From a bacterium (lineage in GTDB: Bacteria; Hydrothermota; UBA3073; JACQXS01; JAQTXJ01), in NCBI GenBank assembly GCA_028688815.1, contig JAQTXJ010000011.1, positions 1 to 42,730 of the forward strand: a stretch of 42,730 nt of DNA, given 5' to 3'. A program made the translations under genes and the position numbers. This document shows positions 8,784 through 37,926 of the stretch, one piece after another; position 1 is the first letter of the stretch; every line of letters starts with the position of its first letter. The notes below the pieces were generated by a model. It did no database searches, was not told the DNA's origin, and was given only the letters and a program-made list of their open reading frames with translations.

Positions 8784-8914
8784 GTCAGGAACGCTGATAA
8801 GAAGCTCTAAAGGCTAAAGTCTAAGAGTTTCTAATCAGGAACACTGGGGAAATTGGATTCCCGCAAAGCGGGATATCCGCCAAAGGCGGAAAGGGCTTCT
8901 TATAAGTCCCTGAC
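8784..8914. repeat. Compound multi-hairpin repeat element (family A, copy 1)
   Basis: The 289-base gap 8653-8941 holds the corA promoter and this structure. Outer arms GTCAGG (8784-8789) / CCTGAC (8909-8914) and ATAAGAAGC (8797-8805) / GCTTCTTAT (8895-8903) enclose two perfect triloop hairpins: CCCGC-aaa-GCGGG (8860-8872) and TCCGCC-aaa-GGCGGA (8876-8890). An alternative hairpin GAAGCTCT (8801-8808) / AGAGTTTC (8824-8831) competes with the outer arm. The element ends 27 bases before the TM2 gene, just upstream of its Shine-Dalgarno site. Confidence 0.7.
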
Positions 8915-8941
8915 GGAACAAAGTCCAACTAAGGGGGTAAA

Positions 8942-9316
8942 ATGTATTGCAGAAACTGTAAAAAAGAACTTTCAGATAGAGCAGTAGTATGTATTGGTTG
9001 CGGGGTTAAACCTCTGGATGGGGATAAGTTTTGTCAGAATTGCGGTGCAGAAACAACGCAGGCAGCCATGATTTGTACGAAATGCGGGGTAAAACTTTCG
9101 AAAAAAGGTGAAAAACAGTGGTTAACAGCGCTTCTTTTTTCTATTTTTCTTGGTGGATTCGGCGTAGACCGTTTTTATCTCGGGTATACGGGATTAGGCA
9201 TTTTGAAAATATTGACGTTAGGAGGACTTGGAGTATGGTGGCTTATTGATATGATTTTAATGGCTTGCAATGAGATTAAAGATGCAAATGGAAATGAATT
9301 GGAGAAGAATTGCTGA
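8942..9316 (+). CDS. Double zinc-ribbon TM2-domain membrane protein
   Basis: The product is 124 residues. Eight cysteines in four CxxC pairs (C3/C6, C17/C20, C31/C34, C45/C48) form two consecutive zinc ribbons. They are followed by a TM2 domain (about residues 58-112) with two membrane helices joined by the characteristic G-G-F-G-V-D-R-F-Y-L-G turn. TM2 proteins are small membrane proteins of unclear function; the ribbons probably bind zinc in the cytoplasm. AAGGGGG is placed about 5 bases before the ATG, a good ribosome binding site, in contrast with the next gene. A 131-base compound hairpin repeat sits immediately upstream and would lie in the 5' leader if transcription starts in or before it. 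Confidence 0.85.
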   Translation: MYCRNCKKELSDRAVVCIGCGVKPLDGDKFCQNCGAETTQAAMICTKCGVKLSKKGEKQWLTALLFSIFLGGFGVDRFYLGYTGLGILKILTLGGLGVWWLIDMILMACNEIKDANGNELEKNC

Positions 9317-9365
9317 GGGTTGTAATAAGGTAAGAAAGTAGAGAGAGTTGCAATTCCGTATTTCC

Positions 9366-9393
9366 TTGACAGTATTTAAAAAAAATGTAATCA
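9366..9393 (+). promoter_or_regulatory. Promoter of the Ca2+ ATPase gene, near-leaderless
   Basis: TTGACA (9366-9371), a 16-base A-rich spacer and TAATCA (9388-9393, preceded by TG) end 9 bases before the ATG at 9403. The predicted transcript start is within about 3 bases of the start codon, and the CATCTCACAGT before the ATG contains no Shine-Dalgarno sequence. Confidence 0.55.
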
Positions 9394-9402
9394 TCTCACA
9401 GT

Positions 9403-12150
9403 ATGATAAAAAATAATTGTCAGTGGTATAAATTAAGCACGGAAGAAACCGTAAAAGCGCTTAATTCTTCTAATACGGGATTAACTGTTGATGAAGCCCA
9501 GAAAAGGTTGCAAGAATACGGATATAATGAATTAGTCAAAAAGAAACAAACTCCTGCTATTGTTTTACTTTTAAAACAATTTGCGAATTTCTTAATCATA
9601 ATACTTCTCTTTGCGGTTGTCTTATCTGCAGTTTTAGGCGAAACGGTAGATGCCGTCGTTATACTTATCATAGTAGTTTTTGCCGTAACTTTAGGTTTTG
9701 TACAGGAGTACAAGGCAGAAAAGTCACTGGAAGCCTTAAAGAAAATGGCGGCGGCTATGGTATCCGTATTAAGAGGGAATAAAGAAATATCAATAGATGC
9801 GAAAGAATTAGTGCCGGGGGATGTATTTATTATAAGAACGGGAGACAAGATTCCTGCGGATGCGCGGATAATTTCAGCCGTAAACTTAAAAGTGGATGAG
9901 GCTGCCCTAACTGGGGAATCCGTTTCCACGAACAAAATAAGCGAACCATTAAAGGGAGAAACTGCTATTGGGGATAGGAAAAATATGGTGTTTATGGGAA
10001 CGGCTGCCGTTTATGGGAGAGGAATGGCTATCGTGACGGGTACCGGTATGGAAACCGAATTTGGTCAAATTGCGGATGCATTGCAAAAAGTAGAACGGGA
10101 GACGACTCCTTTACAAAAAAATCTTGATAGTGTAGGCAAATGGATTGCAATAGGCGCATTAGCATTATGTTTTGTCCTTGCGGCTATAGGCGTTACCCGT
10201 GGGCACACGATACTCGAAATGCTTATATGGGGAGTAAGTTTAGCAGTAGCTGCGGTTCCGGAGTCACTGCCTGCAGTGGTTACTATCTGTCTTGCAATCG
10301 GTATGCAAAGGATGTTAAAAAGAAATTCTCTTATAAAAAAATTGACTGCGGTAGAAACGCTCGGGTGCACGACTTTTATTTGCTCTGACAAAACCGGGAC
10401 GCTTACTCAAGACCAGATGACAGTTCGACAAATTTATATTCCCGGCAAAGAATCTCCTGATTCTAAAGGCGAGGGATTAATTGATGTTTCCGGGACGGGA
10501 TACGAACCTAAAGGCAGTTTTCATTTTCACAGTACGAAAACAATTGTAGTTCCTGATAAAAATAAAGAATTAAGTTTGTTGCTTCGGGCGGGAAGTTTAT
10601 GTAATGACTCTTCTTTAGAACTAACGGATGGAAATTATACGATTAAAGGAGACCCGACGGAAGCCGCTCTTGTGGTAATTGCAGAAAAGGCAGGATTATC
10701 CCAGAAAGATTTGTCGGCACAATTTCCAAGGATTAGAGAAATTCCTTTTTCCTCCGAAACAAAAAGAATGACAACCGTTCATAAATCACCGGAAGGTAAT
10801 ATTGCTTATGCAAAAGGGGCTTCCGAAATAATATTAAACTCCTGCAAATATATTTTTATTAGTGGTAAAGAAGAAATATTAACTTCCGAACACAGGGAAA
10901 AGATACGTGCGGTTGCTCATCAAATGGCAAACGACGCATTAAGAGTTCTGGGAATATCCTATAAGAAATTATCATCAGGCAATACTGAAAAAGATTCTGA
11001 GATAGAACACGATATGGTATTCATTGGAATTACGGGAATGATTGACCCCCCACGCGAAGAAGTTAAGGCCGCAATTGCTTTATGTAATAAGGCGCATATA
11101 AAATCCGTAATGATAACTGGGGACCATAAATTAACCGCAATGGCGATTGCTAAAGAGTTAGGGTTGTTGAAACACGGGATGGCGTTGAGCGGGGAAGAAT
11201 TGGATAAAATAAGCGACGAAGAATTTAATAATCTTGTAGAAAAGATAGAAGTTTATGCGAGAGTTTCCCCTGCTCACAAATTAAGAGTTGTAACGGCATT
11301 AGAAAACAGAGGGAACGTTGTAGCGATGACTGGTGATGGGGTAAATGATGCTCCAGCGCTAAAGAAAGCAGATATCGGCATAGCAATGGGAAAAACCGGG
11401 ACAGATGTAACGAGGGAAGTTGCGGATATCATATTGCTGGATGATAATTTCGCTTCTATTGTTGCCGCGGTGGAAGAAGGGAGAGGAATTTTCAGCAATA
11501 TAAAAAAGTTTCTTGCGTATATGCTTTCCTGTAATATCGGGGAAGTATTATTAATGGCAGTTGTTATACTTTTTGGAACGTTTTTGGGTTTGCCTGCCGG
11601 GATTATACCTCTTATCGCTATTCAAATCTTATTTGTAAATCTTGTTACGGATGGATTGCCTGCAATAGCACTGGCTTTGGAGCCGATAGAAAAAGGCACG
11701 ATGCATAAAAGACCAAGAGGAAAAACCGAATCTATATTTAATAGAGGAGTATTATTTTATATTATAGTCATAGGCATCTGGACAGCAGGCGTGAGTTTAT
11801 TTACTTTTAAGTGGGCACTGGGCAAAGGATATTCGGTAAACGATGCGCAGGGGTTGTGTTTTATTTCGTTGATGTTAGTGCAGTTTTTTAATGCAATAAA
11901 TTGCAGGTCATTAGATAGTTCGGTTTTCAAGATAGGTTTTTGGGGTAACAAATGGCTTTTATTGGCAATAGGATTTTCTACAAGTATGATATTGGCAGTA
12001 GTATATATTCCGGCGCTGCATACAATATTTAATACATATTATCTTGGATTAAAAGACTGGATATTTGCCGTATCCGTTTCCTCGACGGTATTTGTTATAG
12101 TAGAAATCGGGAAACTTGTAAGAGGGTTGTATAAGTTGAGGTTGAAATAA
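9403..12150 (+). CDS. P-type Ca2+-transporting ATPase (P2 type)
   Basis: The product is 915 residues, the normal size for bacterial SERCA/PMCA-like pumps. Visible elements in order are the N-terminal cation ATPase domain (KLSTEETVKALN), the actuator TGES (within LTGESVS), the P2-type intramembrane PESLPAVVT, the phosphorylation motif SDKTGTLT (D329), a nucleotide domain with KGASE, the hinge GDGVNDAPALK, and four to six C-terminal membrane helices. Family knowledge: ATP-driven export of Ca2+ (possibly Mn2+) across the inner membrane with an aspartyl-phosphate intermediate. PESLP in place of the commoner PEGLP is a known bacterial variant. It is preceded by its own promoter and is convergent with macB, with 11 bases between them and no room for a strong terminator. 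Confidence 0.93.
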   Translation: MIKNNCQWYKLSTEETVKALNSSNTGLTVDEAQKRLQEYGYNELVKKKQTPAIVLLLKQFANFLIIILLFAVVLSAVLGETVDAVVILIIVVFAVTLGFVQEYKAEKSLEALKKMAAAMVSVLRGNKEISIDAKELVPGDVFIIRTGDKIPADARIISAVNLKVDEAALTGESVSTNKISEPLKGETAIGDRKNMVFMGTAAVYGRGMAIVTGTGMETEFGQIADALQKVERETTPLQKNLDSVGKWIAIGALALCFVLAAIGVTRGHTILEMLIWGVSLAVAAVPESLPAVVTICLAIGMQRMLKRNSLIKKLTAVETLGCTTFICSDKTGTLTQDQMTVRQIYIPGKESPDSKGEGLIDVSGTGYEPKGSFHFHSTKTIVVPDKNKELSLLLRAGSLCNDSSLELTDGNYTIKGDPTEAALVVIAEKAGLSQKDLSAQFPRIREIPFSSETKRMTTVHKSPEGNIAYAKGASEIILNSCKYIFISGKEEILTSEHREKIRAVAHQMANDALRVLGISYKKLSSGNTEKDSEIEHDMVFIGITGMIDPPREEVKAAIALCNKAHIKSVMITGDHKLTAMAIAKELGLLKHGMALSGEELDKISDEEFNNLVEKIEVYARVSPAHKLRVVTALENRGNVVAMTGDGVNDAPALKKADIGIAMGKTGTDVTREVADIILLDDNFASIVAAVEEGRGIFSNIKKFLAYMLSCNIGEVLLMAVVILFGTFLGLPAGIIPLIAIQILFVNLVTDGLPAIALALEPIEKGTMHKRPRGKTESIFNRGVLFYIIVIGIWTAGVSLFTFKWALGKGYSVNDAQGLCFISLMLVQFFNAINCRSLDSSVFKIGFWGNKWLLLAIGFSTSMILAVVYIPALHTIFNTYYLGLKDWIFAVSVSSTVFVIVEIGKLVRGLYKLRLK

Positions 12151-12161
12151 GTTTTCTGCTT

Positions 12162-14138
12162 TTATTCGTATCTTAATGCTTCTATGGGTTTCAATTTTGA
12201 GGCTTTATTTGCGGGGTAGATACCGAAGAAAATACCAATAACAAATGCAAAAGAAAAAGCTAATATTACTGAAGTCGGAGAAATTACAGTAGGCCAGTTA
12301 GCAAATTTGCTTGCAAGTCTGGAGACTACACTTCCCAGAAGGATTCCAATTATCCCACCCATTAAACTTAAAATCAAAGCTTCTATAAGGAATTGAGATA
12401 ATATATCTCTTCTTTTTCCGCCGATTGCTTTGCGGATACCAATTTCTCTTGTTCGTTCGGCAACGGAAACGAGCATAATGTTCATAATACCAATACCCCC
12501 TACGAGTAAACTTACAATTGCTATTCCGGCTAATAACATAGTGAAGGTCTTGGAAGTTTCCTGCACCGTAGAAAGGACTTCTTCCTGTGAGAATATCCTA
12601 AAATCATCCGGGTCAGATTTTTTAACTTTATGTCTTGCGCGAAGCAGTGTAGTAATTTCAGCCATAGCGGAATTTATAAAAATTTCAGCTCTTGCCTGAA
12701 CATAAATTCTGGAAAGGCGGTTTGGGTGTTCAAGTCCAAAAAGCCTTTTTTGGGCTGTAGCCAGAGGAACAAAAACTATATCATCCGGGTCGTGAAAACC
12801 CTGATTTTGACCTTTAGAAACCATTGTTCCAACAATTTCAAAATTAATTCTATTAATTTTTATATATTGCCCGATAGGATTTTCATCCCCAAATAATCCT
12901 GTTCGGACGGTTTTGCCCAATACTGCTACTTTTCGCATAAGTCTATTATCTTTATCCGTGATAAACGAGCCAGTTTCTACCTGAAAATTATTAATTTCTG
13001 GGTAATCAGCAGTGGTGCCTTCTATGGTTGTAGAATTGTTTTGATTTTTGTAAACGACGGTTGCTCCCCTGCTAAAAGAAGGACATACTTTGAGAACAGA
13101 AAAACAATTACGTTTTATGGCGTCTACATCCTCATTTACCAACGTTACGGAACTTCCTCCACCCTGCCTTATTCCCCCTTGATTAGCCGCACCCGGGGAA
13201 ATAATTAACAAGTTTGACCCCATAGATTTTATTCTGTCGGTTATCTGAGAGCTTGCTCCCTGTCCTAAAGCTATCATCATTATTACGGAACCCACGCCAA
13301 TAATTATGCCTAACATCGTAAGAAAAGAGCGCAATTTAGTTGCAAACAAGGAAGACAAAGACATTGCCAGACTTTCTTTTATACGGTTAAGTGAAAACGA
13401 AAAAGAAGATTTTATAGAGTCTTTCTTGTTAACGGACAAATTAGTTTTTTGTTCTTTACTGTCTTTAGGGACTTCTTTGTCCTCTAATATTTGTCCATCC
13501 TGGATTCTTATAATTCTTCTTGCAGATAAAGCCACTTTTTCATCATGGGTTATTAAAATTATAGTAATTCCTTTTTTATTAAGTTCGGAAATTATCTCCA
13601 TTATTTCTTTGCCTGTTTTAGAATCAAGGTTCCCGGTAGGTTCATCGGCAAGGAGGACAGAAGGATTATTTACCAGTGCGCGGGCAATGGCTACTCTCTG
13701 TTGTTCCCCGCCGGACATTTCATTTGGTTTGTTGTGCATCTTTTCGCTAAGATTGACGGACTGCAGGCATTTTATTGCTCTTTCTTCTCTACCGGAAGAT
13801 ACGGAACCATAGATAAGCGGAAGTTTAACATTTTCAAGCGCATTAAGACGCGGGAGCAAATTAAAATGCTGGAAAATAAATCCTATTCTTTTATTCCTTA
13901 TTTCTGCAAGCTCATCGTCGGAAAATTTACTTACATCCTGTTCCGACAGTAAATAACTGCCGGTAGTCGGAGTATCAAGGCAGCCAAGCATATTCAATAA
14001 AGTTGATTTCCCCGAACCCGATGGTCCCATAATGGCAACAAAATCACCTTCGGCGATTTTCAGGGAAACATTATCAAGGGCATTAAACGGAAGTTCTCCC
14101 GTTTCGTAGGTTTTAGTGATATTTTTTAACTCTATCAT
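12162..14138 (-). CDS. macB: MacB-type ABC transporter, fused ATPase and permease
   Basis: The product is 658 residues. The ATPase domain (about 1-225) has Walker [10 protein letters not shown], signature [15 protein letters not shown], Walker [13 protein letters not shown] and the H-loop LITHD. A Ser/Lys-rich linker leads to membrane segment 1 ([20 protein letters not shown]), a periplasmic MacB core domain and a C-terminal FtsX domain with three membrane helices ([22 protein letters not shown]). MacB is a mechanotransmission pump that works with a periplasmic adaptor and TolC to export macrolides, peptides or lipoproteins. Here it is the third gene of a tolC-macA-macB operon, 7 bases after the adaptor gene. 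The substrate cannot be told from sequence. Confidence 0.92.
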
Positions 14139-14145
14139 TTTTTAT

Positions 14146-15249
14146 CTAATGGGGCATCATTCGAGTCATTTGTCGGGCCCTTGAAGAATTGGGTCCTGTT
14201 TGAGGAGAAGTTTCTATTTTGAAGATAACGGTGTCTCCTTCTTTCAGACCGGATGTTATCTCAATGTTTGCACCGTCAGACAGTCCGGTTTGTACGTCTC
14301 GCTCTACGGATTTGCCATTTTCCAACAAGAAGACATACTTATTGTTTCTTTTGCGTGTGCTGGTAGAGTCGCGTTTAGGACTATTACTGCCTGCCCATTG
14401 TCCTTGTTTTCCATGTTTGTCCGCATTGGCAGATTTCTTAGCTCCTTTGAACCCTTTTCTTTCTCTTACAATGCTAAGAGGGAGAGAGAGAACGTTATCT
14501 TTTGATTGAATTATGAAGTTAACATTTGCAGTCATACCGGACCTCCAGTATTCGGGAATACTATCCGGAACGACCATTACATCATAAATATTTACATTTG
14601 AAACGAGCCTGCTTTCGTGAGAGATTTTGACGACTCTCCCTGTAATCTCCTGGTCAGGGAATGCATCCAGGACGATTTGTGCGGGGTATCCGATACTAAT
14701 ATTACGTATATCGGCTTCATCTACGGATACATTGGCAACTAATTTATCCGATATAACAAATAAAACCGTTGCGGTAGTAACGTTCTGTCCCGGTTCGCAA
14801 TCCCGTTTTATTATTTCGCCGGAAATAGAAGCGTTTATTGGGACCGATTTATAAAAACCTTTAACCATTTCATAGGATTTCTGCGCGCTTTCTATAGAGG
14901 CATTATCGCCTGACTTTTTTGCTTCTGAAAGGTCGGATTCTGCGGATGTAATAATTGCTACTCGTTCTTCGCTTGACAATAAAGCTAAAACTTTGTTTTC
15001 ATAAACTTTATCCCCTTCCTGTGCTTCTATTTTATCAAGCCTTCCGTTTACGGGCGGTTTAACTTCCACTCTGGTATATGGCTGGATTGTTCCAGTTGAC
15101 AGGACTTTTACTTCAATGTTACCATAACTCACCTGAACAGTAGGGTCTTTTTGTTGTTGTTTTAAGTTTGTTTTGTGTTTTTTTACCGAAAACAATACAA
15201 CACTTATTATTAGCAATACTAGAATACCCGGGATAACTATTTTTTTCAT
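14146..15249 (-). CDS. macA: MacA-type periplasmic adaptor (membrane fusion protein)
   Basis: The product is 367 residues. It has an N-terminal membrane anchor (residues 4-22), a biotinyl-lipoyl-like segment (VNGRLDKIEAQEGDKV), a short helical hairpin (about 88-130), a second lipoyl half (INASISGEIIKRDCEPGQNV), and beta-barrel and membrane-proximal domains. The C-terminal part has a charged, low-complexity insert (about 270-300, rich in K, S, N and R) and an Arg/Met-rich tail. Membrane fusion proteins connect the inner-membrane ABC pump to the outer-membrane channel. The ATG overlaps the tolC-like stop (ATGA, 15246-15249), indicating translational coupling. The helical hairpin is short for a MacA, which may matter for how it docks on TolC. 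Confidence 0.88.
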   Translation of the reverse strand: MKKIVIPGILVLLIISVVLFSVKKHKTNLKQQQKDPTVQVSYGNIEVKVLSTGTIQPYTRVEVKPPVNGRLDKIEAQEGDKVYENKVLALLSSEERVAIITSAESDLSEAKKSGDNASIESAQKSYEMVKGFYKSVPINASISGEIIKRDCEPGQNVTTATVLFVISDKLVANVSVDEADIRNISIGYPAQIVLDAFPDQEITGRVVKISHESRLVSNVNIYDVMVVPDSIPEYWRSGMTANVNFIIQSKDNVLSLPLSIVRERKGFKGAKKSANADKHGKQGQWAGSNSPKRDSTSTRKRNNKYVFLLENGKSVERDVQTGLSDGANIEITSGLKEGDTVIFKIETSPQTGPNSSRARQMTRMMPH

Positions 15250-16487: not shown

Positions 16488-16497
16488 AATGTAGCAA

Positions 16498-16525
16498 AGA
16501 ATATACTAAATAATAGATTAGTCAA
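16498..16525 (-). promoter_or_regulatory. Promoter of the tolC-macA-macB operon, short or no leader
   Basis: On the minus strand, TTGACT (16520-16525), a 16-base spacer and TATTCT (16498-16503) end 10 bases before the ATG at 16487. This matches the geometry seen at 7682-7710 and 9366-9393. Confidence 0.5.
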
Positions 16526-16827
16526 ATCTTTAATTATTATTGTTTTTTACTTTTACTAATTAGACAAGAAAAAAAACAAAAACTTGCGGGGAAAGTTGTT
16601 AAATTTTTAGTTGGAGTTTAGTTTCGACGAAGGTGAAACTTTAGTCCAACTTATCCAGTTCAGCTGGATAAGTTTAGTTAGTTGAGTAAGGTAAGTAAGT
16701 TGAGTAAGGGGGATTTTTAAACTCAGCTTTGCTGGATAACTTAGAGTAATCCTTCTACGTCGCAAACTCTAAGTAATAGACAAACCCAGAGGATAAGAAA
16801 AAAAACATATCACTCTGGGTTGTTGTG
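16526..16827. repeat. Gene-free stretch with two family A hairpin elements and GTTGAGTAAG repeats
   Basis: Between tolC and HU there is no gene. Copy 2 (reverse orientation) holds GTTGGA (16610-16615) / TCCAAC (16645-16650) around an inner GTTTC/GAAAC hairpin. It is followed by a perfect 11-bp hairpin, AACTTATCCAG (16648-16658) / CTGGATAAGTT (16664-16674). Direct repeats of GTTGAGTAAG follow (16681-16708). Copy 3 has head CAGC-ttt-GCTG (16724-16734), GGATA, and arms CTTAGAG (16740-16746) / CTCTAAG (16767-16773). Confidence 0.75.
16783..16821. repeat. Perfect 9-bp inverted repeat with A/T-tract loop downstream of HU
   Basis: AACCCAGAG (16783-16791) and CTCTGGGTT (16813-16821) are exact complements separated by 21 bases that include a run of eight A (eight T on the HU transcript strand). 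It lies 7 bases past the HU stop codon. It may act as a transcription end or RNA-stabilising hairpin, but the T-run is in the loop rather than after the stem, so it is not a canonical terminator. Confidence 0.5.
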
Positions 16828-17100
16828 TTATTTGACTCTGCTTTTCAATTCTGAGCCAGTTCTGAATCTGACTACTCTTCTTGCAGGAATGTTAAGGGCT
16901 TTGCCATTCTGTGGATTTCTCCCCTTTCTGGCTGCTCTCTTTCTTACATCCCAGCTACCAAAGCCGACGAGTGTAACTCTTTCTCCCTTTTTCAATGCAT
17001 CTGATACGCCTCCCATAAACTCATTAAGCGCTACTTCTGCTGAACTCTGGGAAATTTCGGCCTTTTTTGCCATTCTGGCAACAAGGTCTGATTTATTCAT
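16828..17100 (-). CDS. hup: DNA-binding protein HU
   Basis: The product is 90 residues, exactly the HU length. It reads MNKSDLVARMAKKAEISQSS with the conserved core GFGSWDVRKRAARKGRNP and the arm-tip N-I-P-A-R. HU is a dimeric nucleoid protein that bends DNA. The start at 17100 is fixed by a perfect AGGAGGTGAT Shine-Dalgarno site 7 bases upstream; an upstream in-frame ATG at 17160 would overlap the promoter. TTGACA (17155-17160) with TAAGCT (17132-17137, 17-base spacer) forms a plausible promoter with a leader of about 25 bases. It is monocistronic and flanked on both sides by repeat elements. Confidence 0.96.
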   Translation of the reverse strand: MNKSDLVARMAKKAEISQSSAEVALNEFMGGVSDALKKGERVTLVGFGSWDVRKRAARKGRNPQNGKALNIPARRVVRFRTGSELKSRVK

Positions 17101-17131
17101 TTGTAAATCACCTCCTTTATCAAGTGTTTTG

Positions 17132-17160
17132 AGCTTAAACACATCTAAAACCTTTGTCAA
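17132..17160 (-). promoter_or_regulatory. HU promoter
   Basis: On the minus strand TTGACA (17155-17160), 17-base spacer, TAAGCT (17132-17137). The -10 box is poor (3 of 6), but the -35 is perfect and the leader then carries the AGGAGGTGAT ribosome binding site. Confidence 0.45.
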
Positions 17161-17517
17161 GCTTTATTTTTAATTTTGTTTTCTTTTCTTTTCCACAGAA
17201 TATGCGAGATTAGAGGCACTATTGGAAGAGCAGAACAGAAAAATATACAAAAGAATATTCACCGCAGAGTCGCTGAGAACGCGGAGAACAGAATAAAAAA
17301 ATGGAAGAAAGTTTCTCTTAAAAAACAACAGAAAACAGAATTGAGAGCCCAGCTGAGCTGGATAAGTTGGAGTAATCCTCCTTATGTCGGAAATTCCAAC
17401 TAAAAAACAGCAGAGAACGCAGAAGAAAAATAATTTTCCTGTTTTGTTTTTTTTGTTACTATTTCGTTAATCCTGTTTATCTGCGAAAATCTGCGTTCTA
17501 AACTCCAACTTATCAGA
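17161..17517. repeat. Gene-free stretch with phrase-like repeats and family A copy 4
   Basis: No credible gene is present; the open frame here is composed of repeats. CACCGCAGAGTCGCTGAGAA (from 17262) and CTGTTTATCTGCGAAAATCT (17471-17490) belong to the degenerate phrase repeats seen across the window. Family A copy 4 has head CCAGC-tga-GCTGG (17349-17361), GGATA, and arms AGTTGGA (17365-17371) / TCCAACT (17395-17401). Confidence 0.7.
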
Positions 17518-21252: not shown

Positions 21253-21321
21253 CTTACCTCCTTTTAAAAAACTACTTCAACCAACGGGCATAAAATGGAC
21301 TATATCCCGTACTATCCGAAC

Positions 21322-21452: not shown

Positions 21453-21457
21453 GTAAT

Positions 21458-25463: not shown

Positions 25464-25683
25464 GTTATTTTAAAGGGAAAGCAGAGAAGAGTTTGCCACA
25501 AAAACACTAAAGCACGAAATTGCACTAAACAGAAAAATAGAGAAATTAGCTACGGATAAAGGACCCCTGCGGAGCGGGATAACAAACTCTAAGGATTGCA
25601 TCCAAGAGTTTGTAAACGGATTTTCACGGATACAGAAAATAGAAAACGGAAAGATTTTAAACTTGCCAAACTCAAAAAAAGAA
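25464..25683. repeat. Intergenic repeats between divergent peptidase and transsulfuration genes (family A copy 5)
   Basis: In the 367-base gap 25406-25772 are phrase repeats (TTGCCACAAAAACACTAAAG, TTTTCACGGATACAGAAAAT). Family A copy 5 has an imperfect head CCCCTGC-gga-GCGGG, GGATA, and perfect 9-bp arms ACAAACTCT (25582-25590) / AGAGTTTGT (25605-25613). No riboswitch-like structure was recognised before the sulfur amino acid gene. Confidence 0.7.
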
Positions 25684-25724: not shown

Positions 25725-25772
25725 ATAAAATTAAGACAATATAAATAAAACAATAATAAAAATTAAAACATT

Positions 25773-26936: not shown

Positions 26937-27217
26937 TGAAAGAAACTAAAATCAACCACAGAGGACACGGAAAAAAACCAAAAACTTGCCACAAAAGCAC
27001 GAAAACACAAAATTCCCAGTAAAACTGGATAACAAGCCCTAAATGACTTAAGGGCTTGTAAACACTAAACAGAAAAGTTTAGAGTTAAAATAAAAAGAAA
27101 GAGACAAACAGATGATAAAATATTTTTACTGTAGAGGGCACAGAGGAAAAATTAGTTCTCAGTTTTTATCTCTGCGTACTCTGCGTCTCTGCGGTGAAAA
27201 TTTTATCCGTTAACTAT
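26937..27217. repeat. Repeat-filled gap with family A copy 6 and CTCTGCG phrases
   Basis: Family A copy 6 has head CCAGT-aaa-ACTGG (27016-27028), GGATA and perfect 9-bp arms ACAAGCCCT (27032-27040) / AGGGCTTGT (27051-27059). Upstream is an ACCACAGAGGACACGG phrase. Downstream is an 8-9 base periodic phrase, CTCTGCGTACTCTGCGTCTC (around 27170-27190), running almost to the next gene's start. Confidence 0.7.
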
Positions 27218-28186: not shown

Positions 28187-28229
28187 GACATCTCAAGTTG
28201 TTTGCGATAAAAAGATATTCCAATAAAAA

Positions 28230-28754: not shown

Positions 28755-29054
28755 AGAATAAAATCAACCACAGAGGAGAAGAACAGAAAAATTTTGGACG
28801 CAGATTAACGCAGATAAAAGGGATAACAAAGTAAAAGAAAAACAGAAACTGAAGAGTTAAGAAATAGAAGAAGAAAAAATATAATTTAGATTAACAAAGG
28901 AAGATTCCCACAGATAAAGAAAAATAAATTTCCTGTTTTTGGTCTGTTCCGTTACTATTTCGTTAATCCTGTAATCCTGTTTATCTGCGTCCTAAAGTCT
29001 AACTAAAAAGTTTGAACGTTAAAAAGATTAACAAACTGAGAACAACAGGGGAAG
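28755..29054. repeat. 300-base gene-free stretch of phrase repeats
   Basis: No gene is seen between the convergent rsmD and thyX genes. The stretch contains AATCAACCACAGAGGAGAAG, ACGCAGATTAACGCAGATAA and, in the opposite sense, CTGTAATCCTGTTTATCTGC. Each is a version of a degenerate phrase that recurs in other gaps. No terminator-type hairpin with a T-run was identified. Confidence 0.6.
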
Positions 29055-30668: not shown

Positions 30669-30702
30669 TTTTAAGTATAACCAATTTTAAACAGCTTTTA
30701 AC

Positions 30703-32253
30703 TTACATTTTTTCGCTTATTGCTTTAGCCTGGGAGAAGAGTAAAAGGTAATCTCTGCCGCCAGCTTTTGAGTCTGTTCCTGACATATTGAATCCGCCGA
30801 AAGGATGAACCCCGACGAGAGCGCCTGTGCATTTACGGTTTATGTATAAATTCCCGCAATGGAATACACGTTTTGCAAGTTCTATTTTGGTTCTGTCGCG
30901 TGTATAAACTGCGCCTGTTAAGCCATATATTGTAGAATTGGCGATTTTTAAAGCATCATCGAAATCATTAGCCTTGATTACGGCAAGTACAGGACCGAAT
31001 ATTTCTTCCTGCGCGAGACGGTCATTTGGTTTAATATCTGCTATTATGGTAGGGTTAATAAAGTACCCGTTATCGTTTTCGTTTTTGCCGCCAAAAATTA
31101 ATTTACCTTCTTTTTTACCGATTTCTATGTACTCAAGAATTGATTTATATGCTTTTTCATTAATGACAGGTCCCATATAATTATTTGAATCCGTCGGGTT
31201 GCCTACGTTGAATTTTTTGACTTTTTCCGCAAGGATATCAATGAACTCATTGTATACGGATTTATCTACTATTACGCGGGAACAGGCAGAACATTTTTGT
31301 CCCTGGAAACCAAAAGCCGAAGCAAGCGTTCCTGTTGCAGCTTCCTGTAAATCGGTATCTTTATCAACGATAATGGCGTCTTTCCCGCCCATTTCTGCAA
31401 CGACCCGTTTTATCCAGATTTGTCCTTCTGCAGTTTTCGATGCGAGTTCGTTAACGTGTAATCCTACTTCTTTAGAGCCGGTAAATGCAATAAATCTTGT
31501 GAGCGAATGCCCGACAAGAGTGTCACCTATTATGCCACCTCTACCTGTTACAAGATTAACGACTCCTGCGGGAACTCCGGCTTCTTCCATTACTTCCATA
31601 AATTTATAAGCAGTTACGGGAGAATCGCTGGAAGGTTTTAATACGACCGTGTTTCCTGCGACAAAAGCGGCTGAAGTCATACCTGTCAGTATTGCCATAG
31701 GGAAATTCCAGGGTGGGATTACGACGCCTACGCCCAGAGGAATATATTTCGATTCGTTTAATTCACCGGGGTAAGGAGTTATTTCCTGTGGGGCTCCGTA
31801 TCTTAATGCTTCTCTGCCGTAGAATTCCAGGAAATCAATAGCTTCGGCGAGATCGCCGTCTGCTTCCGGCCAACTTTTTCCTGTTTCATAGACAAGAACT
31901 GCGCTTAGTTCAAATCTGCGGCGTCGCATAATAGCGGCGGCTTTAAATAAGTATCCTGCGCGTTCTTCGGCAGTTTTTTCTTTCCATTCGTTAAAAGTTT
32001 TATGTGCTATTTCTATTGCTTCAATTGCTTTTTCAACTGTGGGCTGTTGTATTATGCCTATAACTTCTTTTTTATTTGAAGGGTTATAAGAATTAAATTT
32101 ATCTTTACAGAGTTCTTTTTTCCCTCCGATTATAAGCGGATATTCTTTCCCGAATTCTTTTTTTACGTTATTGAGAGCTGTTCCCATTTTTTCGTGATTA
32201 GCGGGAATAGAAAAATCTACGAAAGTTTCGTTTTTAAATTCTGGTAACATCAT
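30703..32253 (-). CDS. rocA: L-glutamate gamma-semialdehyde dehydrogenase (RocA/PruA type)
   Basis: The product is 516 residues from ATG 32253 (MMLPEFKNETFVDFSIPAN); the adjacent ATG at 32250 is equally possible, since AGGAGG lies just upstream. A longer in-frame ATG at 32337 would sit at the -35 box and is rejected. Aldehyde dehydrogenase motifs are PPWNFPMAI, FTGSKEVG, catalytic E287 (VVAEMGGKDAI) and C321 (GFQGQKCSACSRV), and EEIFGPVLAV. The N-terminal region PYPLIIGGK and the overall length match the RocA subgroup, which oxidises glutamate semialdehyde/pyrroline-5-carboxylate to glutamate with NAD+. No proline dehydrogenase is in the window. Confidence 0.9.
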   Translation of the reverse strand: MMLPEFKNETFVDFSIPANHEKMGTALNNVKKEFGKEYPLIIGGKKELCKDKFNSYNPSNKKEVIGIIQQPTVEKAIEAIEIAHKTFNEWKEKTAEERAGYLFKAAAIMRRRRFELSAVLVYETGKSWPEADGDLAEAIDFLEFYGREALRYGAPQEITPYPGELNESKYIPLGVGVVIPPWNFPMAILTGMTSAAFVAGNTVVLKPSSDSPVTAYKFMEVMEEAGVPAGVVNLVTGRGGIIGDTLVGHSLTRFIAFTGSKEVGLHVNELASKTAEGQIWIKRVVAEMGGKDAIIVDKDTDLQEAATGTLASAFGFQGQKCSACSRVIVDKSVYNEFIDILAEKVKKFNVGNPTDSNNYMGPVINEKAYKSILEYIEIGKKEGKLIFGGKNENDNGYFINPTIIADIKPNDRLAQEEIFGPVLAVIKANDFDDALKIANSTIYGLTGAVYTRDRTKIELAKRVFHCGNLYINRKCTGALVGVHPFGGFNMSGTDSKAGGRDYLLLFSQAKAISEKM

Positions 32254-32600
32254 TCCTCCTAAATTTGTTGTATTTTTTTTAGGTAAATACTTAGAAATAA
32301 TAGAATTATCACTAACAATAAAAAGGGATAATGTCAAGTATTTTAAGTTAATGTCGTAAGGGGTTGAAAATAAATGGAATGAGTGGGAATATTAAAGAGA
32401 TTAACAAATTGGAACCACGAGATTTCACAAGATTAAAAAACAAATTATAACCACGAATAAACGCGAATAAGTACGAATATGAAAAAAATAAGATATTTAG
32501 TCACGGATTCACACGGATTAAAACATGAAACAAAAATAGGACAATGAAATATTTGACAAAAGGATTTAAGAATATTACATTAATAAAATTAGAGGTGACT
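32254..32600. promoter_or_regulatory. Divergent promoter region with phrase repeats
   Basis: Minus strand: TTGACA (32332-32337) starts a leader of about 70 bases that ends in AGGAGG for rocA; the -10 box is weak. Plus strand: TTGACA (32553-32558), a 17-base spacer and TACATT (32576-32581) precede the methyltransferase. Between them (about 32370-32530) lie phrase repeats such as AACCACGAATAAACGCGAAT and TCACGGATTCACACGGATTA. Confidence 0.55.
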
Positions 32601-33407
32601 ATGAAACAAGAAAAATGGGTAGAAAAAGATTTTGAAGAAGTTGATTGCTTTAGGTGCGGAACAAAGGGAAAATTATTATACAAAAAAGAACTATGGGGAG
32701 TCGTAAAATGCGAAAAGTGCGGGCAGGTGTTTATAAGCCCTAGACTTACAGAAGAAGGAAGAAAGAAAATATATGAAGACCATAGTTACTTTGATACGGG
32801 AGTTTATGGATTTTCTAATAAATTTAATCTGGCTATGAGCTTGCAAAGAACATGGTCGAACGATAGACTTAACCTTATAAGCGAGTTATTAAATAAGAAC
32901 TTAGAAAATAAAAAACTTCTGGAAATAGGTTGCGCTTATGGACTATTTCTCAATTTTGCAAAACAAAAAGGTCTTGAAGTAACGGGAATAGAATACTCCT
33001 CTACAGCCGTAAAATGGTCTAAAGAAAATCTAAAATTGAATGTGCATAATGGAGAAATAGAGACCATTAAATTACCCGAAAATACTTATGATGTGGTATG
33101 TTTTTGGGATGTTATCGAGCATGTTAAAAACCCTGAATTGTTTTTAAAATCCGTAAGACGAGTATTAAAAAAAGACGGTGTTATTGTTTTTTCTTGCCCA
33201 TATTTTAATTCCGTTCCTGCGACGGTTTTTAAGTCTAACTGGTGGACATTACGCCCGGAACAACATATCTGGCAGTTTACCCCTGATACTCTGGGGAAAT
33301 TATTTGGAGAACAGGGAATGAAACTCGTGAAGGTTATAAGAAATCCTCTCTCCCGTATAAATTTGTTCAGGTTTGATAGCATTACGGTTGCGGCGAAAGT
33401 CGTGTGA
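32601..33407 (+). CDS. SAM-dependent methyltransferase with N-terminal zinc ribbon
   Basis: The product is 268 residues. The start at 32601 is set by AGGTG 4 bases upstream; an in-frame ATG at 32544 precedes the promoter's -35 box and is rejected. Four cysteines in two CxxC pairs (C16/C19, C37/C40) form a zinc ribbon. A class I methyltransferase fold follows, with LLEIGCAYGLFL (motif I), GIEYS (acidic residue contacting SAM), and DVVCFWDVIEHVKNPELFLK (motif of the type 11/23 family). A glycan, lipid or small-molecule substrate is likely, but nothing nearby identifies it: neighbours are rocA (divergent) and an Omp85 gene (convergent). Confidence 0.8.
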   Translation: MKQEKWVEKDFEEVDCFRCGTKGKLLYKKELWGVVKCEKCGQVFISPRLTEEGRKKIYEDHSYFDTGVYGFSNKFNLAMSLQRTWSNDRLNLISELLNKNLENKKLLEIGCAYGLFLNFAKQKGLEVTGIEYSSTAVKWSKENLKLNVHNGEIETIKLPENTYDVVCFWDVIEHVKNPELFLKSVRRVLKKDGVIVFSCPYFNSVPATVFKSNWWTLRPEQHIWQFTPDTLGKLFGEQGMKLVKVIRNPLSRINLFRFDSITVAAKVV

Positions 33408-33723
33408 TAGAAAGTTGAGTAGGTTAAGTCCAGCTGAGCTGGATATCAATCTCTAATCCGCCAAAGGCGGAAAGAGTTTGTTATAAGTTGAGTAAGTTAA
33501 GTAAGGAGAAAAAAAAGATTTACAGAACGAAAAGACGCAGAGTACGCGGAGAATATAATACAAGAGTATAGCCACCCCGCCCATTACGGGGTAAACTCCT
33601 GCCAAGGATGGACACGGATAAAGAGAACAAAAAAAGATTTAGGGTTTAAGAAAGAGAGAACACAGAGAAGACCGGACTTGATAAATCAAGTCCCTACACA
33701 CATAAAAGAGACGAATGGGCGGA
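33408..33723. repeat. 316-base gap with family A copy 7, family B copy and a GC hairpin
   Basis: Family A copy 7 (33430-33480) has head CCAGC-tga-GCTGG, arms CAATCTCT (33447-33454) / AGAGTTTG (33473-33480) and inner hairpin TCCGCC-aaa-GGCGGA (33457-33471). It is bracketed by near-identical 18-base direct repeats (33412-33429 and 33485-33502, 17 of 18). Phrase repeats follow (CGCAGAGTACGCGGAGAA), then CCCCG (33575-33579) / CGGGG (33587-33591), then family B copy GGACTTGAT (33674-33682) / ATCAAGTCC (33685-33693) plus CTACA. Confidence 0.75.
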
Positions 33724-35172
33724 TTAGAATACTGCCTGGAGAGACAGGTGTAATTTTCCGTCCATAAATTCATTTGGTTTGGTTAGTGCATACATAATTT
33801 TTATCATCCCGATTGGCGATTCTACTGCACCTCCTATACCAAACCCTTGTCTCCAAATCCCATCAATATAGCCGATGTCATAGAATGGGAATAAGAAAGA
33901 ATTACCCGAATATTTACGATACTCGATGTTTGACCAGCCTATTGTAGTTCCGCTGAATTCATCTTCCCAGTAGCCCCGTAACGTTTTTGCGCCGCCCAAT
34001 TTAAACTCATCATAGATTGAAACTTCTTTCATAAGTTTATAAAAGTTTATTGAGTTAAATAAAATGTCCGTATGTTTTATTGGTATGTAGGAATCAAAAT
34101 TTGTCATTATTCTTTCTATATATTGCGTTGTAAAAGCAGTTTTAATATGGTAATTTACACCGGGCATTGTCTGTGTGTTAAAACCTATTCCAAGTATTCC
34201 CGTATAGATAGATTCTTTGTTCAGAAATGCTCCACAGATGCCGACATCCGCTATGAATTCATAACTTATGGGGATGTTAAGAAGCAATTCGGCTTGCTTT
34301 TTTGTATAAGTAGTATCTTCTTTCCTATATAGAAAATTTCCTGTAAATCCGGTTTTAGAAGCGAATAGCCATGGCTCTTTGTATTCAATTTCAGAGTAGT
34401 TTGAGAGTTTGCCGAGTTGGTTCCATCGAATATGGACAGTTTTGCCTGTTCCGAAAAGGTTAGGGCTTCTAAGTTCAAACAATCCTGCAAGTTCGTTTTG
34501 TTGATAGCCGACGATTCCTTCCGCCGTGTTTGCTCGTTTCTCTTTTACTTCAATGACGAGAGTGTCTTCGGTTAATAAGTCTATTTTTACCGAGTCAATA
34601 AATTCAAGATTTTCAAGTCTTTGCGTTGCGGTATTAATGTTAGACTGTTTAAATGTTTCGCCTTTTTTAAGCCCGGATTTTCGTAAGATTACAAAATCCT
34701 TAGTAGAGTTATTCCCTTTAATTATTATTGTTTTTAGTTTTACAATGGGACCTTCGGCGATTTGGAATTCAAAATTTACTTTACTTTCAGCAAAATTAAA
34801 GTTAGAAGGGATTACTTTACAGAAAGGATATCCCGAATTCTCGTATTTAGTTATAATGGATTCGATATCATTTAAGAAGGCATTTTCATTAAAGACGATT
34901 CCTTTTTTCATAGTTAGCAGTTTTCTTAGTTCGCGGGATTTGAATATTTTGTTTTCTGTGAATTTTATTTTACCGATTTTGTATTGAGAGCCTTCGTTTA
35001 TGAACAAAGTGTCTCCCGATGATTTGACTTCTACTTGTAAAAAACCTTGTTGTTTATAAAGATTTGTAATTGTCTCAATGGTTATTGTATCTGTCTCGGT
35101 TAAAAGTTGTTTGGAGGGGAAAAACTTATTGCCAATTATTATCGTACTTATTAAAAATAAGATTATATTCAT
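33724..35172 (-). CDS. Omp85-family outer-membrane protein (TamA/BamA-like, short)
   Basis: The product is 482 residues, short for the family (TamA about 577, BamA about 800). A signal-like N terminus is followed by roughly two POTRA-like domains (about 50-215; GSQYKIGKIKFTENKIFKSRELRKLL and EGPIVKLKTIIIKGNN). The beta-barrel then has the loop 6 signature LGGAKTLRGYWEDEF, equivalent to (V/I)RG(F/Y), and a final strand ending in LQAVF. Omp85 proteins insert barrels into the outer membrane or secrete substrates. The reduced POTRA number suggests a TamA-like role, possibly with the TamB-like protein at the window's left end, but this is inference. TTGACA (35214-35219) and TATGCT (35190-35195) form its promoter; no Shine-Dalgarno site. 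Confidence 0.85.
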   Translation of the reverse strand: MNIILFLISTIIIGNKFFPSKQLLTETDTITIETITNLYKQQGFLQVEVKSSGDTLFINEGSQYKIGKIKFTENKIFKSRELRKLLTMKKGIVFNENAFLNDIESIITKYENSGYPFCKVIPSNFNFAESKVNFEFQIAEGPIVKLKTIIIKGNNSTKDFVILRKSGLKKGETFKQSNINTATQRLENLEFIDSVKIDLLTEDTLVIEVKEKRANTAEGIVGYQQNELAGLFELRSPNLFGTGKTVHIRWNQLGKLSNYSEIEYKEPWLFASKTGFTGNFLYRKEDTTYTKKQAELLLNIPISYEFIADVGICGAFLNKESIYTGILGIGFNTQTMPGVNYHIKTAFTTQYIERIMTNFDSYIPIKHTDILFNSINFYKLMKEVSIYDEFKLGGAKTLRGYWEDEFSGTTIGWSNIEYRKYSGNSFLFPFYDIGYIDGIWRQGFGIGGAVESPIGMIKIMYALTKPNEFMDGKLHLSLQAVF

Positions 35173-35189
35173 TTTAAGTTATAAAGTAA

Positions 35190-35219
35190 AGCATAGTCAG
35201 AGAAACAAAAAATTGTCAA
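35190..35219 (-). promoter_or_regulatory. Promoter of the Omp85 gene
   Basis: On the minus strand TTGACA (35214-35219), 18-base spacer, TATGCT (35190-35195), 17 bases before the ATG at 35172. The leader would be about 10 bases without a ribosome binding site. Confidence 0.45.
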
Positions 35220-35277
35220 CAAATTGTTAAAGTTGTTATAGGGGCAAGCACGCACACAAATAGAAATAACATTTTAA

Positions 35278-35308
35278 TTGACATAATGCATAAATAAAGT
35301 AATTTATA
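35278..35308 (+). promoter_or_regulatory. Promoter of purF, probably leaderless
   Basis: TTGACA (35278-35283) starts 38 bases before the purF ATG. The -10 region lies in an AT stretch (AATTTA at 35301-35306 with a 17-base spacer, or TTTATA at 35303-35308). Either choice puts the transcript start at or next to the ATG at 35316; there is no purine-rich ribosome binding site. Confidence 0.5.
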
Positions 35309-35315
35309 TATAATT

Positions 35316-36743
35316 ATGTGTGGAGTTGTGGGGATAATAGGGAATACGCCTGTAGCCGAAGAATTATGGCTTGGGTTACTTGCAATTCAGCATAGGGGGC
35401 AGGATACTGCAGGTATTGTAACGTATGACAACGACAGATTCCATTCAAGACGAGGCAATGGAACGGTGCAGGAAGTTTTCGAACAGAAACATTTGCTTGC
35501 TTTAACCGGGAATGCGGGAATAGGACAGGTAAGGTATCCGACAATTGGCTCCGGTAGCGAAGAAGATGCCCAGCCACTTTTAACGAATTCTCCTTTCGGC
35601 ATAGCGATGGTTCATAACGGCAATGTTGCGAATTACGGAAGTTTGAGAACATGGATTACGAATAACTATCATAGACACATAAATACGACAAATGATGTGG
35701 AAGTTATACTCAATGTTCTTGCAGCCAACTTAAAGGACTCAAGTACTAATTCATCTAACGAAATATTTAATGCCCTGAAAGCAGTTATGTCTAAAGTAAA
35801 CGGGAGTTATTCCTGTATAACTTTTATTGCAGGACATGGGATGTTGGCATTCAGGGACCCGCAAGGCATAAGACCTCTCAAGATAGGGAAGAAAGGTAAA
35901 AATTTCTGCATAGCTTCGGAATCTGTAGTGCTTGATACGCTTGGGTACAAAGAGATGCGGGACGTATTGCCGGGAGAAGCCATATTTATAAATATGCAGC
36001 GGGAAATGAAATCCAAAATAATTAAAGCGAAACCTGCGCGTCATTGTATATTTGAATATATATATTTTGCAAGACCTGACTCTATAATGGATAACGTAGA
36101 AATATACAAAGCAAGATTGAAGTTGGGAGAGGGACTTGCAAGACTCGTGAAAAAGATGAAATTGAACCCGGATGTGGTAATCCCGGTACCTGACACGGCA
36201 AGAACTGCTGCACAAGGAGCGGCAGAAGCATTGAAAATTCCCTGCAGAGAAGGGCTTATAAAAAATAGGTATATAGGAAGAACTTTCATAATGCCGCGAG
36301 AAGTCAATAGGGCGGAAAAGGTAAGATACAAGCTTAATCCATTAAAATGCGAGATTCAGGGGAAAAAAATATTATTAATAGACGATTCCATTGTGCGCGG
36401 GTCTACTTCAAAATCCATAATATCGCTTATAAGAGAAGCCGGACCAAAAGAAATCTATCTTGCAAGTACCTGTCCGCCGTTAAGATACCCATGTTTTTAT
36501 GGTATTGATATGCAGACAAGAAAAGAATTTATTGCTAACGGCAGGAGTTTAAGCCAGATTCAAAGAGAAATAGAATCGGATAAACTAATATATCAATCAC
36601 TGGATGGGATGTTAAAAAGCGTGGGGAACGGCAAACTTTGCTGCACTGCTTGTTTTACGGGGGATTATCCTACGGCAATCGAATCCGACGATATGTTGAG
36701 GATAGAAAAAGACAGGGCAAAACAGGTTTCTTTATGGGAGTAA
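35316..36743 (+). CDS. purF: Amidophosphoribosyltransferase PurF
   Basis: The product is 475 residues. It begins MCGVVGIIGN, so removal of Met exposes the catalytic N-terminal Cys of the class II glutamine amidotransferase domain; RGQDTAGI and HNGNVANYGSLR follow. The phosphoribosyltransferase domain carries the PRPP motif ILLIDDSIVRGST (about 353-365) and the C-terminal CCTACFTGDYP. It catalyses the first step of purine synthesis, PRPP plus glutamine to phosphoribosylamine. Some PurF carry an iron-sulfur cluster bound by Cys residues in the C-terminal region; the C-x-x-C-C-x-x-C pattern here is compatible but unproven. No other pur gene is in the window. Confidence 0.95.
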   Translation: MCGVVGIIGNTPVAEELWLGLLAIQHRGQDTAGIVTYDNDRFHSRRGNGTVQEVFEQKHLLALTGNAGIGQVRYPTIGSGSEEDAQPLLTNSPFGIAMVHNGNVANYGSLRTWITNNYHRHINTTNDVEVILNVLAANLKDSSTNSSNEIFNALKAVMSKVNGSYSCITFIAGHGMLAFRDPQGIRPLKIGKKGKNFCIASESVVLDTLGYKEMRDVLPGEAIFINMQREMKSKIIKAKPARHCIFEYIYFARPDSIMDNVEIYKARLKLGEGLARLVKKMKLNPDVVIPVPDTARTAAQGAAEALKIPCREGLIKNRYIGRTFIMPREVNRAEKVRYKLNPLKCEIQGKKILLIDDSIVRGSTSKSIISLIREAGPKEIYLASTCPPLRYPCFYGIDMQTRKEFIANGRSLSQIQREIESDKLIYQSLDGMLKSVGNGKLCCTACFTGDYPTAIESDDMLRIEKDRAKQVSLWE

Positions 36744-36792
36744 TTTGTACTTTACAAAACCACGAAATTTAATCGTACAAACAAAAATAAAA

Positions 36793-36965
36793 TAAACCCA
36801 GCTGAGCGGGATAAGTTAGAAACACTGATAAGTTGGACTAATGCTTCCGCCTGAGGCGGATCGCAAAGTCTAACTAAGGAGAGAGAAAATGATAGAAGGC
36901 TCTTAGAACTTTAGTTCTTAGAGAATTCTATCTGGCTTTGTTGGAAAAAAGGAGAGAGAAAATGA
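36793..36965. repeat. Family A copy 8 and an adjacent hairpin bracketed by a duplicated ribosome binding site
   Basis: The gap 36744-36961 holds two structures. Copy 8 has a head near 36798-36810, arms AGTTGGACT (36831-36839) / AGTCTAACT (36867-36875), and inner hairpin TCCGCC-tga-GGCGGA (36846-36860). Next, the 17-base sequence AAGGAGAGAGAAAATGA occurs exactly twice (36876-36892 and 36949-36965). The bases between carry a hairpin with outer arms GATAGAA/TTCTATC and inner arms CTCTTAGAAC/GTTCTTAGAG (one mismatch). The second copy supplies the ribosome binding site and start codon of the lipoprotein gene. Confidence 0.75.
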
Positions 36966-37462
36966 CAAACTTTAAAAGATTACTTTTATTGAGCAGCGTT
37001 GTGTTTTTAACTCTTTCAGGTTGTGCGATGATTAAAAGCCGTTTAGCTATGAAGGATTGTAAATTCAGGATTGCCGGTATAGAGTCTGTGGAGTATAATC
37101 CATTGCAAGATATAGATAAAGTCAACGTAAAATTGAATATTGATTGTATGAATCCAAATAGTGCAATAGAAGCAGTTTTGGACAAGCTTGTTTTTAATCT
37201 TCTTTTGAACGGGAAAAATGTGGCTGACGGCAAAATAACAGACCAACTAAGAGTAGCTCCTCAAAAGACTGTAAGTTTCCCTGTTAATATAGGATTATCC
37301 TTATCTAAAATAGGGAAAACTGCCCTTGAAGCCATACAATCAAACAAGGCTGCCTACGAACTGAAAGGAACGGCATTCTTTTCTACAATCTTAGGAGAAA
37401 CTTCTATCCCGGTAACAATAACTAAAGGTAAGTGGTCAGGGGAGTATACGGTGTCAAATTAG
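36962..37462 (+). CDS. LEA14-like lipoprotein
   Basis: The product is 166 residues. The start at 36962 is set by GGAGAGAG 5 bases upstream; an in-frame TTG/ATG further upstream at 36938 lies in the repeat. A lipoprotein signal (MTNFKRLLLLSSVVFLTLSG) is followed by lipobox L-S-G-C21. The mature part resembles an LEA type 2/WHy domain: a single Ig-like fold with VEYNPLQDIDKVNVKLNIDCMNPNSA and ADGKITDQLRVAPQKTVSFPV. LEA14-like lipoproteins are common in the FCB group and lack a settled function; membrane-surface or desiccation-related roles are proposed. It is convergent with gatC, overlapping by 9 bases. Confidence 0.78.
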   Translation: MTNFKRLLLLSSVVFLTLSGCAMIKSRLAMKDCKFRIAGIESVEYNPLQDIDKVNVKLNIDCMNPNSAIEAVLDKLVFNLLLNGKNVADGKITDQLRVAPQKTVSFPVNIGLSLSKIGKTALEAIQSNKAAYELKGTAFFSTILGETSIPVTITKGKWSGEYTVSN

Positions 37463-37807
37463 TTTCGGCACTACAAAGTAGTTATTATATGTTGCAGGAG
37501 CGTTTGCAAGCACTTCCGAAATAGAAAATCCTTCTTTTATAATATCTTCTCTCAAAGGTGTTTCCGTTTTAAAGACATAATCTCCGATTACCGCCAAGTA
37601 GGCGGAATTTTCAACAAGACCCAAGCGGGATGTTCCAGATGTCCCATTTGTATTTAATGATGTGTTGTCTATACTAAGTTTTTGAATTGTATTCACGTAC
37701 TTTACGATACTGCTAAGTTCGGTAGTGAATTTTTCTATTTCTTCCAAAGTTAGTTTTAATTTACAGAGTTCAGCAATATGGGTAACGATAGAAGGTGTAA
37801 TTTCCAT
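37454..37807 (-). CDS. gatC: Asp/Glu-tRNA amidotransferase subunit C
   Basis: The product is 117 residues, slightly longer than the usual 95-100. GatC hallmarks are IVTHIAELCKLKLTLEEIEKF at the start and PLREDIIKEGFSISEVLANAPATYNNYFVVPKLI at the end. GatCAB converts misacylated Glu-tRNA(Gln)/Asp-tRNA(Asn) to the amide forms. gatA and gatB are not adjacent, so the complex is encoded in scattered places. The gene ends inside the convergent lipoprotein gene (9-base overlap). A stretch in the middle (about 48-62, SIDNTSLNTNGTSGTSR) is an insert of low complexity compared with typical GatC. Confidence 0.9.
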   Translation of the reverse strand: MEITPSIVTHIAELCKLKLTLEEIEKFTTELSSIVKYVNTIQKLSIDNTSLNTNGTSGTSRLGLVENSAYLAVIGDYVFKTETPLREDIIKEGFSISEVLANAPATYNNYFVVPKLI

Positions 37808-37897
37808 TTTTAAGATTTATTTTTGGTTTGTATTTTTGATATTAAATATTAAAACCAAATGTTAATCAACTTTTTAGAAATACCTAAAAATTAAATC

Positions 37898-37926
37898 CTC
37901 AAGCTGTTCGCCTGAGGCGGATTGAG
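37898..37926. repeat. Family A fragment (copy 9)
   Basis: CTCAA (37898-37902) / TTGAG (37922-37926) encloses a CGCC-tga-GGCG hairpin. It sits 10 bases past the stop codon of the ferredoxin-type gene and is the shortest member of the family. Confidence 0.45.

Follow-up and report, generated by a model that had tools for sequence, protein, structure and literature searches.

Dispersed double-hairpin elements with covarying stems in two sister bacterial genomes and their probable spread as single-stranded DNA

Intergenic regions of the 42,730-nucleotide stretch of bacterial DNA analyzed here (the window), which is contig C42 of a draft genome (G000; 2.67 Mb in 157 contigs, 92% complete), contain short palindromic segments that raise the question of how a repeat can change the letters of its stems from copy to copy and still remain paired. 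A sequence-only reading had proposed that nine intergenic places in the window carry copies of one family, in which a triloop head hairpin (CCAGC-tga-GCTGG or a variant of it) is followed by GGATA and a second hairpin, and had attributed the paired changes to selection on structure in RNA or single-stranded DNA. To address this question, we utilized a covariance model, R1, that was trained on G000 copies only.

The layout of head, GGATA and second hairpin is present at seven of the nine places, namely 16605-16667 (reverse), 16724, 17349, 25566, 27016, 33430 and 36798 (Table 1). These seven clear members have E values from 1e-15 to 4e-9 in a search over 97 kb (43-68 bits) and, when folded as single-stranded DNA, exceed dinucleotide shuffles in stability by 2.6-6.4 SD. 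The arm pairs that had been quoted are correct, including the single mismatch at 33430, and all of the window copies are indeed intergenic. An eighth place, 8797, holds a degenerate copy (DNA fold z of -1.5), while the ninth, 37898, is not a member as it has no R1 match even at E 10. Three further stretches of the window (17254-17300, 25494-25540 and 26956-27013) are dispersed degenerate intergenic repeats (CACGGATTTACACGG / CACCGCAGAGACGCAGAG) that often host element insertions. Additionally, GC-rich triloop inner-hairpin modules (TCCGCCnnnGGCGGA, CCCGCnnnGCGGG) at 8859-8890, 33457-33471 and 36846-36860 also stand by themselves at other places and might represent small repeats in their own right.

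Table 1. Double-hairpin elements and one unrelated hairpin in the window, with R1 scores.
Position	Strand	Assignment	Head	Second-hairpin arms	Other features	R1 (bits)
8786..8832	+	degenerate member	broken	AGAAGCTCT/AGAGTTTCT	second hairpin intact	28.7
16607..16668 (start also given as 16605)	-	family member	CCAGCTGAACTGG	AGTTGGACT/ACTCCAACT	inner AGTTTC..GAAACT	43.4
16723..16776	+	family member	CAGCTTTGCTG	ACTTAGAGT/ACTCTAAGT	adjoins HU gene	59.5
17348..17403	+	family member	CCAGCTGAGCTGG (canonical)	AGTTGGAGT/ATTCCAACT		67.9
25565..25615	+	family member	CCTGCGGAGCGGG	ACAAACTCT/AGAGTTTGT	inner GGAT..ATCC	56.3
27015..27061	+	family member	CCAGTAAAACTGG	ACAAGCCCT/AGGGCTTGT		50.5
33429..33484	+	family member	CCAGCTGAGCTGG	CAATCTCT/AGAGTTTG	one T.T mismatch; inner TCCGCC-aaa-GGCGGA	56.9
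36797..36877	+	composite member			5' half partly duplicated internally	45.4
37890..37930	.	non-member			simple hairpin between two genes, conserved in G001	

Read from its 5' end, an element consists of a Y-CCAGCnnnGCTGG triloop hairpin, ATA, an arm of the form A(7 nt)T, AA, an inner hairpin, AA, the complementary arm and AA. The arms of the second hairpin are thus 9 nt long, the inner hairpin is variable, and the whole measures about 50 bases (range 47-60) with short linkers of GGATA, AA...AA and a terminal AA. The two ends, CCAGC and ACTAA, do not match as inverted repeats, and palindromes lie close to both of them. Neither end carries a GTAG or CGTC tag in 144 parsed copies, the element has no U-tract, and an Rfam scan of the window gave no match. 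A tandem arrangement exists at L122:1201-1607 (G000:C146:2551-2957), where five second-hairpin units with a CAAAACTGGATAAG head variant follow one another with a period of about 91 nt.

The family extends well beyond the window. In the 2.67-Mb genome, 14 exact occurrences of the 17-mer CCAGCTGAGCTGGATAA contrast with none of its reversed control, which disposes of the idea that these are unrelated sequences with chance palindromes. A search of the genome and its relatives with R1 yielded at least 145 matches in G000 (E up to 1); at E <= 0.01, an order-wide search, capped at 150 scored candidates for each genome, gave at least 130 matches in G000 and at least 141 in G001, the sole other genome of the genus that was searched. 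At E <= 0.001, matches occur in 2 of 80 genomes (G000 and G001) and in none of the other 78, all from the phylum; one further genome of the order gave a single borderline match (E 0.002). When 85,000 species genomes were scanned for the pattern, the MAG "bacterium isolate STD1_36", which is G001, was the sole match. Consequently, as far as these collections show, the family appears to be genus-specific, with the proviso that the same architecture built from other sequence would escape such a search.

Paired changes are genuine and occur in all three helices. Covariation scores of 0.472, 0.456 and 0.378 were obtained for sets of 18, 149 and 56 distinct sequences, as compared to 0.127, 0.124 and 0.107 with shuffled partners. 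This is about 3.5 times the shuffled level with about 94% of cells paired, and none of 500 shuffles reached the observed score in any set. Sliding the partner by 1-3 columns lowered pairing from about 94% to 13-57%. The 56-sequence set is composed of G001 copies and provides a separate test, given that no G001 copy was used to train R1, although the alignment of this set is still fitted to R1. The 9-nt arms of 134 copies form 60 distinct pairs; 19 of these are fully Watson-Crick and are linked by at least 24 two-sided changes in a minimum spanning tree, counts that do not represent independent events given that the copies are related. The mean arm pairing of these copies is 8.2 of 9 versus 4.9 when shuffled. 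Decay of a single stem cannot be the source of 19 distinct perfect stems. Inner hairpins vary even more, with a helix of at least three pairs in 121 of the 134 copies and 71 distinct versions. Stem positions 5, 7 and 8 exhibit recurrent kept mismatches (T.T in GTTGGTC/GTCCAAC, T.C in GAATCTC/GAGCTTC) which, unlike random decay, may constitute a recognised bulge as E. coli REPs require.

Not all of this variation appears to have arisen one base pair at a time. At several shared sites, the stem or the inner hairpin differs between the two copies while both remain paired. For example, the inner hairpin is TCCAGC..GCTGGA at C138:7346 and TGGC..GTCA at L202, within flanks that are 94% identical. 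The same-site pair C77/L181 has GAC..GTC versus GAG..CTC, both paired, and C157/L217 differ by C-G versus T-A. The paralogous HU locus in G001 has the same insertion as 16724 with other arms; three versions of the arms are known for the HU locus, CTTAGAG/CTCTAAG, GTTAGAC/GTCTAAC and a mismatched hybrid, CTTAGAG/GTCCAGC. The HU gene itself (window 16828-17160; L160; L161) has several near-identical copies in G001 that are with or without an element at the same downstream position. These same-site differences suggest an exchange of modules between copies, which makes it harder to read the covariation as base-by-base compensation alone; part of the covariation could stem from gene conversion. The proposed selection on structure holds to the extent that folding matters for the origin or spread of the element, but part of the stem change that occurs in place is whole-module exchange.

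The way in which copies enter the chromosome was analyzed by joining their flanks after removal of varying numbers of bases and by searching for the joined 16-mer in 1.35 Mb of both genomes. When Y-CCAGC...arm-AA is removed, the join is an existing 16-mer for 32 of 134 copies versus 2.3 with shuffled flanks. Joins at other points that take out an equal number of bases are enriched as well (13-15), and joins that imply a duplication or deletion show no enrichment among the 134 copies. As enrichment is confined to equal-length joins, insertion is clean, without duplication or loss of the target. Three weak signals of target-site duplication (k of 5-6, 3-4 copies each) are contradicted by this empty-site test and probably stem from repetitive flanks. 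As an example, C78:4010 reads cggataacagac[CCCAGC...TTGTAA]acggatt when filled, and the insert-free repeat cggataacagacacggatt is present in the flank of C22:8762. The nested copies at L197:1696-1799 and C77:19149 have exact empty counterparts in the respective sister genome, at C127:5687 (GTTGGAGT^AATGTTTC) and L181:8723 (GTTAGAGT^AATCCC), respectively. Sites have the form W N^N (A/C/G) R, with A/T at -2 in 94% and a purine at +3 in 95%; beyond this W and R, no fixed target tetra- or pentanucleotide was found 5' of the element. Turnover of copies between the sister species is also high. Synteny links the window to G001:C7, with an identity of about 90%, and 16724, 17349 and 36798 are common to both, with a different inner hairpin at the counterpart of 17349 and a nested second element in place of the partial 5' duplication at that of 36798. 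The copies at 16605, 25566, 27016 and 33430 are missing from the syntenic G001 intervals, and many further loci differ beyond the window.

The orientation of the copies is biased, with 153 of 193 located on the strand that has more G than C. The coding-strand GC skew is 0.165 for genes on the element strand and 0.045 for genes on the opposite strand. The strand that carries most elements at a G001 locus coincides with the gene-balanced skew in 27 of 34 loci (P 0.0008) and with the majority gene strand in just 16. When both are entered into one regression, skew alone has an effect (t of 3.3 versus 0.2 for gene strand). Additionally, neighbouring copies switch strand 18 times versus 36 expected. 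The G-rich strand in bacteria is normally the leading strand, and its sequence equals that of the lagging-strand template. The written strand of the element would therefore be the one that is exposed as a single strand, so that orientation appears to follow replication, the direction of which we infer by proxy of gene-balanced GC skew. Domains of constant element strand flip several times within single G001 contigs (L174-L193, L196-L235; C1 and C2), more often than two replichores allow. Past inversions or assembly errors thus have to be assumed, and the flips may mark such events. The composition of mismatches also bears on the molecule that folds. Under RNA selection on one strand, G.U should exceed its antisense mirror A.C, but pooled over the three helices there are 38 G.T (15+11+12) and 37 A.C (11+8+18) mismatches. 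This equality, together with an orientation that is linked to skew independently of gene strand, favours single-stranded DNA at the fork over RNA and narrows what had been left as either of the two.

Searches for a mobilising enzyme identified no PF01797 (Y1 transposase) gene in G000, of which about 8% may be missing from the assembly, and two such genes in G001. Neither genome has an IS110 DEDD transposase or a reverse transcriptase (RVT_1), a Y2 transposase search (IS91/Helitron-like) had no match in G000 or in any control genome, and a full-length relative of the element was not found. We nonetheless consider it probable that the element is a non-autonomous, seemingly parasitic, genus-specific and PATE-like mobile DNA that is coupled to replication and moves as a single strand, with the fold as its recognition signal. 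The written strand, as lagging-strand template, would become single-stranded at the fork and fold into two hairpins. A transposase for single-stranded DNA, provided in trans, would recognise these hairpins and the linkers, irrespective of the letters in the stems. The enzyme would excise or copy the folded strand and paste it into single-stranded target DNA. With recognition limited to the fold and the short linkers, a stem change would survive in a lineage only when its partner changes too, and covariation would follow. Inserted copies would subsequently decay as neutral DNA and swap modules through local recombination or template switching.

Several features of known systems fit this PATE-like reading. 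The IS200/IS605-derived PATEs of Haloquadratum (PMC3119063) also lack terminal inverted repeats, have palindromes near both ends, cause no target duplication, undergo nested insertion, are heterogeneous in sequence and lack the length to encode a gene, with one 52-bp form that consists of the termini only. IS608 and ISDra2 of the IS200/IS605 group share single-strand hairpin ends, the absence of a target duplication and an orientation that follows replication (PMC5371812). However, these are autonomous elements with tnpA and a strict target of 4-5 nt, and PATEs target a well conserved oligonucleotide and have relatives that carry transposase genes (PMC3119063); neither feature is found here. 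The points against the PATE-like reading are the lack of a Y1 gene in G000 and of the strict target tetranucleotide that IS200/IS605 transposases need, the repeated flips of element strand along single G001 contigs, and the share of the covariation that gene conversion could explain.

The main rival, which we regard as unlikely but tenable, is a selfish hairpin spread by host replication and repair, through template switching or slipped annealing, with no transposase at all. Arms would then stay complementary through copying of one arm from the other or of whole modules between elements. This would fit with the absence of a candidate transposase, IS110 or reverse transcriptase from G000, with the in-place module swaps described above (C138:7346 versus L202; the arms at the HU locus) and with the replication-linked orientation, and such spread has been proposed earlier for short palindromes of organelles. 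Against it, exact identical ends at dozens of sites are easier to obtain with an end-defining enzyme, and arm-to-arm copying leaves the shared linkers and the two separate hairpins unaccounted for. The double-hairpin or repetitive hairpin elements of Allomyces, sponge and Volvox mitochondria (PMC2800124, PMC2670323) are likewise intergenic and mutually nested hairpin pairs of about 50 nt, without flanking duplications in Allomyces. They differ in that the present family resides in a bacterial chromosome and is presumably unrelated in sequence, common descent being unexpected. A bolder version, which we hold to be rather doubtful, is that the family constitutes a bacterial counterpart of these elements, one with exact ends that spreads by the fork machinery alone and keeps its pairing by module exchange.

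Distinctly less probable is mobilisation as a REP family by RAYTs, for instance by the products of the two Y1/RAYT-like genes of G001 (L194:1414-1920 and L195:1363-1878), one of which lies 350 bp from a copy. REPs and REPINs (PMC3733652, PMC8266576, PMC3116915) resemble the element as short, high-copy extragenic palindromes with triloops, complementary stem changes between subfamilies and conserved mismatches. However, each of the two genes lies between its own GTAG palindromes (GTAGCGCGAAGCTTTAGCTTCGC; GTAGGCGCAGGTTTTAACCTGCG), so that these RAYTs were rejected as mobilisers, and G000 has no such gene. The element, in contrast to REPs, lacks a GTAG or CGTC tag and a RAYT of its own and arranges its two hairpins in tandem in a constant order, and genuine GTAG REPs coexist with it in G001 as distinct entities. 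One GTAG REP of similar type sits inside a double-hairpin copy in the G001 counterpart of window 17500.

A functional RNA element under selection for its fold, such as an mRNA 3'-end stabiliser, terminator or regulator, is in our estimation very improbable. It would account for the strong fold, the covariation and the intergenic location, and (+,+) gene contexts outnumber (-,-) ones (70 versus 34). However, all kinds of gene context are used, orientation shows no dependence on gene strand after skew is taken into account, there is no G.U excess, U-tract or Rfam match (in the window), and most sites are not kept between the sister species. Finally, although the element is short, dispersed and partly palindromic, a MITE derived from a classical DDE transposon is scarcely credible given the absence of a target duplication in the empty-site test and of ordinary terminal inverted repeats. 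By inspection, an attC-like reading (GTTRRRY/RYYYAAC) was also rejected, with the arm order opposite and many copies having other arms.

As it fails both the REP tests and the classical IS200/IS605 target test, we file the element as a member of neither group. The initial impression of a formula without a described precedent stands for the exact sequence but not for the kind, of which PATEs, REPs and mitochondrial double-hairpin elements are known, and by analogy the element appears to work like PATEs and the mitochondrial elements. The family thus provides bacterial, sequence-tractable examples of tiny hairpin elements in which the letters of the stems change while the pairing stays, and in which exact ends, empty sites and replication-linked orientation can all be measured. 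Consequently, the spread of short palindromes with no obvious transposase, a question that is shared with CGTC REPs and mitochondrial double-hairpin elements, becomes testable.
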